A stretch of 42,655 nucleotides of DNA, taken from an uncultured Holophagaceae bacterium (lineage in GTDB: Bacteria > Acidobacteriota > Holophagae > Holophagales > Holophagaceae). Numbering within the stretch: position 1 is the stretch's first letter; every line of letters starts with the position of its first letter. Of the stretch, positions 40,351 through 42,655 are shown piece after piece. The stretch covers positions 1 through 42,655 of the forward strand of contig CAIOFF010000006.1 of assembly GCA_903857495.1 (NCBI GenBank), given 5' to 3'. A model generated the notes under the pieces. It was not told the DNA's origin and made no database searches. It worked only from the letters and a program-made list of their open reading frames with translations. The translations under genes were made by a program, and so were the position numbers.

Positions 40351-41598
40351 TCAGGAATATCCTAACAATGCTTCTAAATTATCCAATTGGACGACTTCCT
40401 GCTCTCCGGTGGCCATGTGCTTGACCGTGACCGTGCCGGCGTCCAGCTCGCCGTCGCCCAGGATGAGCACCGTCTGGATGCCCATGCGGTTGGCGCTGGC
40501 CATGGCCTTCTTCAGGGCGCCGCCGCGGGTCTCCAGCTGCAGGGCGAGGCCCGCGTCCCAGAGGCGGCGGGCCAGCTGGAGGGCCGCAGTGGCGGCCCGC
40601 TCGCCCAGGGGGATCAGCAGGACCGGGGGCGTGGCCGGGGCCTCGCCGCGCACCTGCTGGAGGATCAGGGCCAGGCGGTCCAGGCCGATGGCCCAGCCGA
40701 AGGCCGGAACCTCGGGGCCGCCGAGCTGCTTCACCAGGCCGTCGTAGCGGCCGCCGCCCAGCAGGGCGCTCTGGGCGCCCAGGTCGGAGCTGAGCAGCTC
40801 GAAGGCCGTGCGGGTGTAGTAGTCCAGCCCGCGCACCAGCCGGGGGTCCTCCACGAAGGGGATGTCCAGGACCGTCAGCAGCTCCTTGAGCCGCGCATGG
40901 TGCTTGGCGGAGCCCTCATCCAGGAAGTCCGTGATGACCGGGTGCCCGGCCAGGGCGGCCTGGCAGCCCTCATTCTTGCAGTCCAGAACGCGCAAGGGGT
41001 TGGTCTCGATGCGGCGGTGGCAGTCCCCGCAGAACTGCTCCTGCCGCTCACCGAAAAAGACCCGGATGGCCGCGTGAAAGGCGGGGCGGGACTCCGGGGT
41101 GCCGACGCTGTTGATGGAGAAGCTCAGCCGCTTGAGGCCCAGCTCCGTGAGGAAGCTGTGGAGCATGAGCAGGCTCTCGGCCTCGCTCTCGGGGCTGGCC
41201 ACGCCGAAGCTCTCGGCTCCGATCTGCCAGAACTGCCGGTACCGGCCCGTCTGCATGCGCTCGTAGCGGAACTGCTGGCCGATGTAGTAGAACAGCACCG
41301 GGTCGTTGGAGCTCAGCAGCTTGTGCTGGATGGCGGCCCGCACCACGCCCGCGGTGTTCTCGGGGCGCATCACCACCTCGCGCCCGCCCTTGTCCGTGAA
41401 CTGGTACATCTCCTTGTTCACGATGTCCGAGCTCTCGCCCACGCTGCGCTTGAAGACGTCCAGCTCCTCCAGGATCGGGGTGCGGATCTCGCCGTAGCCG
41501 TGGCGCCCGAATACGCGCCGGGCTGTTTCCTCGATATGCTGGAACCAACGCAGCTCCGCCCCGAAGAGATCCCGCATACCTTTTACTGACTGGGCCAT
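40351..41598 (-). CDS. hisS: histidyl-tRNA synthetase
   Basis: A 415-residue class II synthetase starting MAQSVKGMRDLFG. Motif 2 is FRYERMQTGRYRQFWQ and the histidine-specific signature is LVRGLDYYTRTAFE. The insertion domain has the usual cysteines (FCGDCHRR, LDCKNEGC), and the anticodon-binding domain forms the C-terminus. The start at ATG 41598 is preceded by GGGAG about 8 bases upstream; the in-frame extension to 41661 would run into the divergent amidase gene. Its ATG and that of the amidase gene on the other strand share two base pairs. Confidence 0.94.
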   Translation of the reverse strand: MAQSVKGMRDLFGAELRWFQHIEETARRVFGRHGYGEIRTPILEELDVFKRSVGESSDIVNKEMYQFTDKGGREVVMRPENTAGVVRAAIQHKLLSSNDPVLFYYIGQQFRYERMQTGRYRQFWQIGAESFGVASPESEAESLLMLHSFLTELGLKRLSFSINSVGTPESRPAFHAAIRVFFGERQEQFCGDCHRRIETNPLRVLDCKNEGCQAALAGHPVITDFLDEGSAKHHARLKELLTVLDIPFVEDPRLVRGLDYYTRTAFELLSSDLGAQSALLGGGRYDGLVKQLGGPEVPAFGWAIGLDRLALILQQVRGEAPATPPVLLIPLGERAATAALQLARRLWDAGLALQLETRGGALKKAMASANRMGIQTVLILGDGELDAGTVTVKHMATGEQEVVQLDNLEALLGYS

Positions 41599-42376
41599 GA
41601 TCCGACTCCCGAGCCTTCTGCTCGCCACCTTCAGCCTACTGTCTTGGGCCCAGGTTCCCAAACCCGAGGGACCGGCGACCCGCCTGAAGGTGATGCTGGA
41701 CCCAGGTCACGGAGGCGAGGACGGCGGCGCCCGGGGGCCGAAGGGGCTGAAGGAGAAGACCGCCGCCCTCGCCTTGGCCCGGGCGGTCTCGGCCAAGCTT
41801 GAAGCGGCGGGCTTCGAGGCCGTCTGCACCCGCGAGGACGACACCCTGGTGCCGCTCTGGGATCGGGCGAAGGCCGCCAATGAGCAGGGCGCGGACCTCT
41901 TCATCAGCCTCCACCTGAACGCCGCCCGGGCCAAGGCGGCTCGGGGGTCGGAGGTCTATTTCCTGAGCCTGGCCAAGGGCAAGAATGACGACGTCGCCGC
42001 GGCGGAGAATGCCGGGGCCGATGCCCCGGCGGGCAGCCCCGACAGCGTGGTGGCCAGCATCCTCGACGATCTGGCCCAGAAGGCCTACCTGCAGGACTCC
42101 GAGCGGCTGGCCGTGGCCCTCCAGGGCCAGCTCAACCACCTGGCCGGCATCAAGGAGCGTGGCGTGAAGCAGGCCCCCTTCATCGTGCTGCGGGGCGCCG
42201 CCATGCCCGCAGTGCTGGTCGAGGTTGCCTTCATCTCCAACCCCAAAGAAGAGAAGAAGCTCCAGGACGCCGCCTTCCGCGCCACGGTGGCCGACGCCAT
42301 CACCCAGGGCGTCCGCCGCTACTTCGCCGGCACCAATGGCGGCGTCCGGCGGCGGATGGTCGGTGGGCGCAGCTGA
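41597..42376 (+). CDS. N-acetylmuramoyl-L-alanine amidase (Amidase_3), secreted
   Basis: A 259-residue protein with a signal peptide (about 1-19, LLLATFSLLSWAQ). The zinc amidase domain shows MLDPGHGGEDGG (first His), ISLHLNA (second His) and VLVEVAFISN (catalytic Glu), as in AmiA/AmiC. It cleaves the stem peptide from MurNAc in the periplasm, for example during cell separation. There is no AMIN or LysM targeting domain. The start codon overlaps that of hisS and I see no ribosome binding site in front, so translation may begin on a leaderless or very short-leader mRNA. Confidence 0.9.
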   Translation: MIRLPSLLLATFSLLSWAQVPKPEGPATRLKVMLDPGHGGEDGGARGPKGLKEKTAALALARAVSAKLEAAGFEAVCTREDDTLVPLWDRAKAANEQGADLFISLHLNAARAKAARGSEVYFLSLAKGKNDDVAAAENAGADAPAGSPDSVVASILDDLAQKAYLQDSERLAVALQGQLNHLAGIKERGVKQAPFIVLRGAAMPAVLVEVAFISNPKEEKKLQDAAFRATVADAITQGVRRYFAGTNGGVRRRMVGGRS

Positions 42377-42386
42377 GCGCTGAATC

Positions 42387-42485
42387 AGGCCCGACCTTGA
42401 ACGAAAGCCCATTCGAAGCCATGATGGAGGGCCGTGCTTGCCACGGTGATCCGTACCCGTAGCTCAGTTGGGAGGCTCCGCCTCC
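42387..42485 (+). repeat. 99-bp direct repeat, copy 1, with tRNA-like 5' segment
   Basis: This segment is identical to 42557-42655. It starts AGGCCCGACCTTGAACG and ends with GGAGGCTCCGCCTCC, a 6-bp hairpin with a TCC loop. Near the end CCCGTAGCTCAGTTGGGAG reads like acceptor stem end and D-arm of a tRNA gene. The following bases (GCTCCGCC) do not complete a tRNA. A shorter imperfect similarity (GAGCGCTG) extends upstream into the amidase stop. Confidence 0.85.
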
Positions 42486-42511
42486 GCGAGCGAGCGGAGC
42501 GAGGAGCGGGA

Positions 42512-42532
42512 GGACAGCGCGGGGCGCTGTCC
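42512..42532. repeat. hairpin in the spacer between the direct repeats
   Basis: GGACAGCGC (42512-42520) and GCGCTGTCC (42524-42532) form a perfect 9-bp stem with a GGG loop. It is nested inside a longer-range pairing of CCTCCGC (42481-42487) with GCGGAGG (42538-42544). The 71-bp spacer is thus almost entirely self-complementary, which suggests a structured repeat rather than a gene. Confidence 0.6.
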
Positions 42533-42556
42533 GTCAGGCGGAGGAGCGCTGGCCGG

Positions 42557-42655
42557 AGGCCCGACCTTGAACGAAAGCCCATTCGAAGCCATGATGGAGG
42601 GCCGTGCTTGCCACGGTGATCCGTACCCGTAGCTCAGTTGGGAGGCTCCGCCTCC
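42557..42655 (+). repeat. 99-bp direct repeat, copy 2, cut by the window end
   Basis: Exact second copy of 42387-42485, offset by 170 bp. It reaches the last base of the window, so the repeat may continue as a tandem array with a 170-bp period. It holds the same tRNA-like GTAGCTCAGTTGGGAG segment and the terminal GGAGGC/GCCTCC hairpin. Confidence 0.85.

Follow-up and report, generated by a model that had tools for sequence, protein, structure and literature searches.

The end of the DNA stretch studied here carries what is probably a tandem array of tRNA-Arg(CCG) 5'-pseudogenes, each split by a 72-bp dispersed element (E in the following), which lies between an amidase gene and a live tRNA gene and represents a dispensable by-product. 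The array is real and unusual, and probably mostly inert. Its units have a fixed anatomy, they are found in the syntenic position in related genomes, they recur at two tRNA-Arg genes, and the element within them belongs to a family present throughout the genus. The window, that is, the whole stretch of 42,655 bases that was analysed, is identical with contig C6, one of the 70 contigs (3.70 Mb) of this genome.

A unit consists, in this order, of a leader bearing a putative promoter, nucleotides (nt) 1-19 of tRNA-Arg(CCG), the 72-bp element and tRNA nt 23-33, and the next leader starts two bases after GAGCGCTGGCC (Table 1). The first tRNA piece comprises the 5' strand of the acceptor stem, the 5' strand of the D-stem and the first part of the D-loop, and the second piece the 3' strand of the D-stem and the 5' half of the anticodon stem. 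Element E takes the place of D-loop nt 20-22, with the two strands of the D-stem retained on either side of it; the units are devoid of tRNA nt 20-22 and 34-77. The amidase gene is the upstream neighbour of the array.

Table 1. Features of the array and of the genes next to it in the window.
Feature	Position	Strand	Evidence
hisS, histidine--tRNA ligase (neighbour)	40351..41598	-	TIGR00442, 459 bits (cut-off 286.75)
N-acetylmuramoyl-L-alanine amidase gene (syntenic)	41597..42376	+	PF01520 (Amidase_3), 181.5 bits (cut-off 27); ORF
Leader of unit 1	42387..42452	+	promoter-like TTGAAC 42397-42402, 17-nt spacer, CATGAT 42420-42425
tRNA-Arg(CCG) nt 1-19, unit 1	42453..42471	+	100% match to the intact gene of G029
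72-bp dispersed structured element E	42472..42543	+	match to model R1 over 1-72, 91.5 bits (this copy is among the 21 training sequences of the model)
tRNA-Arg(CCG) nt 23-33, GAGCGCTGGCC	42544..42554	+	read directly against the intact tRNA of G029
Leader of unit 2	42557..42622	+	TTGAAC 42567-42572, CATGAT 42590-42595; 100% identical to unit 1
tRNA-Arg(CCG) nt 1-19, unit 2	42623..42641	+	100% match
Second E, first 14 bases, cut by the contig end	42642..42655	+	identity with unit 1

The original prediction, made from the letters of the window, had described a canonical tRNA 5' portion that breaks into a GGAGGC hairpin. The tRNA portion is real, as GTACCCGTAGCTCAGTTGG equals nt 1-19 of the intact tRNA-Arg(CCG) of the related genome G029 with no mismatch. 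The break exists as well, with one correction: the tRNA sequence ends at TTGG (42471), and the GAG that follows already belongs to E. No complete tRNA was found in the window either with ARAGORN or in Rfam at the gathering score (zero matches each). An intron in the D-loop, with E spliced from the RNA and the tRNA restored, was ruled out because nt 34-77 do not come after E in the units.

The stretch 42387-42485 recurs at 42557-42655 with 100% identity over its 99 nt and a spacing of 170 bases, far beyond chance, which confirms the predicted pair of exact copies with a 170-bp period. The identity is real, but the right-hand limit of the 99-bp repeat is nothing other than the contig end. Since the window stops there, 99 is probably an assembler k value (word length), a property of the assembly. 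Steps of 99, 119 and 141 occur in a common series of assembler k values. A comparison covering the starts of 40 of the 70 contigs and two contig ends revealed that four pairs have exactly 141 bp in common and one end 119 bp, others sharing 123, 101 or fewer bases, while the end of C6 repeats 99 bases of itself; together with the k series, these shared ends again indicate that 99 probably comes from the assembly. The true biological unit is 170 bp, not 99.

Given this coincidence, the terminal second copy might be a spurious loop made by the assembler, the true locus having one unit and then the intact tRNA, as do the nearest relatives G029 and G069. We consider this unlikely. If the intact copy of this genome resembles that of G029, it shares only 85 bp with a unit, so that a 99-base word should separate the two; moreover, the second copy continues 14 bases into E, and therefore two or more units in the genome of the window are likely, though not assured. 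A single copy followed by a complete tRNA, the arrangement named in the original prediction as speaking against an array, is indeed seen in G029 and G069, whereas G063 has two real units before the tRNA on a single contig, showing that such arrays are not merely artefacts. The first unit of the window would be left untouched by an artefact of this kind and is not in doubt. Another contig of the same genome (C21, locus L377) starts within a tandem array that has a repeat length of about 126 bp and contains T-arm-like pieces; repeat arrays may therefore break this assembly elsewhere too.

The origin of the array from a tRNA gene, one of the possibilities initially proposed, is borne out by five related genomes (G029, G069, G063, G009 and G005), in which tRNA-derived tandem pseudogene units directly precede an intact tRNA-Arg(CCG). 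In the close relatives G029 and G069 a single unit stands before a leader and the intact gene; in G063, whose 3.73 Mb form a single contig, there are two full units repeating every 153 bases; and in G009 and G005 units also stand before the intact tRNA, G009 carrying further E copies back to back. G014 has two adjacent E copies, then a leader and the tRNA, and no tRNA head. An intact tRNA-Arg(CCG) is present in 39 of the 47 genus genomes; in these, E lies shortly upstream of the gene at six of 39 loci and a full unit in five of 39 genomes, the window being an additional case, with its tRNA not assembled. G008 has another tRNA-Arg(CCG)-like match, at C12:77302, which was not counted.

In a tree of 23 amidase sequences, which does not contain G005 and G014 and has several weakly supported branches, the five placeable carriers are spread over more than one clade: G029 and G069 cluster with the window, and G063 and G009 are placed apart from them. 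This means either several gains of the array or frequent losses. Seven further genomes have remnants of an upstream tRNA copy on the same strand (within nt 10-54) in front of the live gene, tRNA pieces on the opposite strand upstream of other genes not being counted; the upstream duplicate is therefore probably old in the genus. In each species the tRNA pieces of the units agree with its own tRNA (GCGCTGG in the clade of the window; GCGTTGG in G005, G009 and G063), which would fit gene conversion or recent copying.

A search of the own genome for the intact matching tRNA, as had been suggested, gave no match to the G029 tRNA-Arg(CCG) at E-values up to 1e-10. The end of contig C52 carries the sequence that in G029 starts 65 bases behind the tRNA. 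Both observations indicate that the gene most likely resides in the unassembled gap between C6 and C52. CGG accounts for 65 of the 187 arginine codons in six genes of the window, and a tRNA with the anticodon CCG is therefore probably needed.

The leaders of the units resemble those of the live genes. The pattern TTGANN-17-CATSAT, with a spacer of always 17 bases, occurs upstream of 30 of the 39 intact tRNA-Arg(CCG) genes of the genus and also in the unit leaders; the remaining nine intact genes are without the usual leader. A consensus promoter scanner made no call at the unit leader (eight of 12 consensus bases, threshold 9), and its assignment as a putative promoter is based on conservation. 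Leader identities between the clade of the window and other clades are unreliable, owing to extra bases beside the tRNA, and were left out. In G029 and G069 the hexamers of the distal leader are altered and those of the proximal leader are not. This suggests that the units are dispensable, and the changes would argue against a strict need for them.

Element E was characterised with an alignment of 21 of the 24 collected copies (72 columns). The three-way junction drawn for it has 96.4% standard pairs, and the helix 41-49/53-61 shows changes on both sides in seven of nine pairs, with a covariation score of 0.332 compared with 0.126 in shuffles (0 of 500) and at most 0.079 when the pairing was slid. 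Helix 1 has two pairs changed on both sides and a mismatch at one position in 12 of the 21 copies, helix 2 has none changed on both sides, and the minimum-energy fold differs from the junction as a whole. Thus one hairpin appears well supported, while the remaining helices are weakly supported, if plausible. The spacer between the repeats, which consists of E and tRNA nt 23-33, had been called strongly self-complementary; judged by folding energy, it stands out just mildly to moderately (z = -1.38 for 105 nt; z = -2.53 for the 72 nt of E), and covariation is the better structural evidence. The proposal of a structured RNA family holds in part, for a genus-wide E with covarying pairs; it covers only the inserted 72-bp element, whose status as an RNA is predicted.

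The model of E finds matches in all 47 genus genomes, 2-39 in each at E-values up to 0.001, further copies in the genome of the window among them, and in one of 23 genomes of other families, once. This sole outside match (L299 in G054; 57.6 bits) is in another family of the same phylum. Seven of 19 copies in G063 and six of 18 in the genome of the window lie within 500 bases of a tRNA, which is more than expected given that 1.4% of G063 is within about 600 bases of a tRNA, with the proviso that several of these copies share one tRNA, so that the counts are not independent, and that most copies are not near a tRNA. At five loci in five genomes (L017, L019, L021, L024 and L030) E occupies seemingly one conserved place, after a GTARTCSACCM-type sequence; this place may be at a gene end and not next to a tRNA.

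Rfam gave no match at the gathering score for E in the window and no family at E-values up to 0.1 for six loci; a mir-4788 match in L102 (35.5 bits, cut-off 91) was taken as chance. With blastn against at least 120 stretches of named genomes, drawn by too loose a pattern, the best E-value was 0.012 and none of the stretches carried E. Y1 transposase (PF01797) was sought as the mover of E and rejected as absent from genomes with units: it was not found in G000, G029, G069, G063, G009 and G005, and it is present in five of the 47 genus genomes, none of which has CCG or CCT units.

A separate observation concerns several tRNA genes, downstream of which there are inverted copies (20-26 nt) of their own T-arm, in G063 (L335, L342, L348, L350, L351 and L353) and in the genome of the window (L101, at the end of C52). 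Some of these copies form tandem repeats with a unit length of about 127 bp, and terminator-like hairpins as well as E-like elements lie between them. In G063, such a match is below an E-value of 1e-5 at six of 30 loci; a control of mismatched pairs, counted only at an E-value of 0.05, gave 30 of 120, and T-arm matches weaker than 1e-5 are therefore chance.

The same junction is found at a second arginine tRNA. A pattern search for the transition from the D-loop into E, fixed to GCTCAGNTGG so that tRNAs with other D-arms would be missed, yielded 12 sites in nine of the 47 genomes, and the reversed control pattern none. Of these, eight belong to tRNA-Arg(CCG) units, including the pair at the end of the window. 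In G063, G031, G035 and G030 the remaining four precede an intact tRNA-Arg(CCT) as units that are interrupted at the same position. Among the fetched loci of tRNA-Arg(CCT), E lies upstream of the gene in five of 20, a weak match in L283 (18.9 bits) being left out of this count. The sequences of the four CCT units retain the stem GCAGCTCC/GGAGCTGC, while the loop varies; the retained stem could mean function, the four sequences falling short of proof of selection.

These observations are probably best accounted for by the following order of events. An upstream duplicate of tRNA-Arg(CCG) would have become dispensable, E would then have inserted into the D-arm of this spare copy, and the 3' half of the copy may have been lost at the junction to the next leader. 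Unequal recombination between the repeated leaders could have gained and lost units, giving the present numbers of one in G029 and G069, two in G063 and probably at least two in the genome of the window. The last, intact copy, with its own promoter, would supply tRNA-Arg(CCG). Each unit could start a short promoter-driven RNA made of a tRNA head and hairpins, for which an essential role is not expected.

Three observations sit uneasily with such a plain course of events. At the array site, E of the window is 97.2%, 98.6% and 95.8% identical to E of G063, G009 and G005, respectively (88.9% for G014), which is above the identity of the amidase DNA (81.8% for G063 and 82.6% for G009); this could mean either a constraint on an RNA or a young, recently mobile element. 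The use of one D-loop position at two tRNA genes could also mean function, and so could the extended stem retained in the CCT units. The units might accordingly yield short tRNA-headed hairpin RNAs that regulate or spare the supply of tRNA-Arg(CCG) and tRNA-Arg(CCT), for instance as decoys for tRNA enzymes, or they might be extra promoters feeding the tRNA. The promoter copied with every CCG unit seen, an E nearly unchanged between clades despite amidase divergence, one architecture at two arginine tRNA genes, the covarying helix and the extended stem kept in the CCT units while their loops differ are all compatible with such a role. It is nevertheless improbable: few genomes with an intact tRNA-Arg(CCG) have a full unit and these are scattered in the tree, G029 and G069 have a damaged distal promoter, many E copies are unconnected with any tRNA, and transcription of the units is itself a prediction. 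That the units arose as a by-product of duplication and insertion is more probable than that they serve as a dedicated regulator.

Slightly more doubtful still is a combined scenario in which a still-mobile E homes to the D-arm hairpins of arginine tRNAs without a Y1 transposase, the insertion is tolerated because the promoter and the tRNA 5' end were duplicated along with E, and the chimeric RNAs tune the CCG and CCT tRNAs.

The gene for tRNA-Arg(CCG) is also an integration hotspot in the genus, with displaced 5' and 3' parts of the tRNA. The usual leader with uninterrupted nt 1-43/45 is found 38 kb (G020; L107 and L106) and 5 kb (G067; L105) from the intact tRNA, and nt 32/33-77 lie 3.3 kb (G002; L108) and 2 kb (G031; L128) downstream of it. 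The missing leaders of nine of the 39 intact genes are perhaps due to integration. That the repeats are themselves att-like scars of an integrase using this tRNA, as originally proposed, is very improbable and finds no support in the units: the real integration site, the missing leaders and a tRNA match that ends at nt 33, near the scar breakpoints, would suit it, but E interrupts the units at nt 19/23 and fills the break, their period is only 153-170 bp with no gene inside, and the scars of G020 and G067 run through this position uninterrupted. Att scars at tRNA genes share with the array a truncated tRNA copy near the intact gene; they differ in that here no integrase gene, island or typical 3'-end fragment lies between the units.

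Of the known systems, tandem repeats at the tyrT locus of Escherichia coli come close in layout. There, 178-bp repeats each contain the last 19 nt of tRNA-Tyr, and the locus gives rise to rtT RNA. In both arrays a tRNA gene is accompanied by tandem units of 150-180 bp, every one of which contains a fragment of that tRNA; at tyrT the fragment is from the 3' end and the array is downstream, whereas here a 5' fragment with a putative promoter is upstream and split by a dispersed element.

We rate the array as a REP-like element inside tandem tRNA duplicates. The comparison with the literature drew on parts of PMC3733652, PMC3174227 and PMC5799277. According to the sections of PMC3733652 used here, REPs are of GTAG and CGTC types, the latter without a dedicated transposase and with a stem of 8-9 bp that ends in CGTC and has a loop of 4-5 nt, the stem almost invariably starting with A-T; REPs of some species sit inside other palindromes, and the tRNA passages in these sections concern tRNA-enzyme genes, not tRNA genes. 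Like REPs, E is short, structured, palindromic and dispersed in one lineage, and it is nested in palindromes (the D-stem and flanking inverted repeats). By eye, CGTC follows the covarying hairpin in 13 of the 21 aligned copies, and the helix has nine pairs with a 3-nt loop, or eight pairs with 5 nt when the closing pair is opened. Unlike REPs, which are single hairpins of 20-40 bp, E has 72 bp and several stems and was amplified together with a tRNA head. The first pair is G-C in 21 of 21 copies and the second C-G or G-C in 20 of 21, at variance with the A-T pairs in the first and second positions of CGTC-type stems, and the unit-bearing genomes do not have the Y1 transposase (RAYT) that goes with GTAG-type REPs. 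E also resembles, by description, the Rickettsia palindromic elements, palindromes of one lineage that insert into genes and spacers (PMC3733652), as it is palindromic, belongs to one lineage and enters genes and spacers; in contrast to them, the tRNA duplicate in which it sits has ceased to be a complete gene. In titles and the beginnings of abstracts, with partial coverage of the literature, no tRNA 5' units split by a palindromic element were found.

In practical terms, a short-read assembly broke at the array, and the tRNA gene is missing from the assembly. If the units are expressed, they would represent RNAs with a tRNA head that escape tRNA finders. In one genus, 5' fragments of two arginine tRNA genes, bearing putative promoters, are split by the same element at one fixed position, and if E enters the apexes of hairpins without a known transposase, this locus would record its choice of target.
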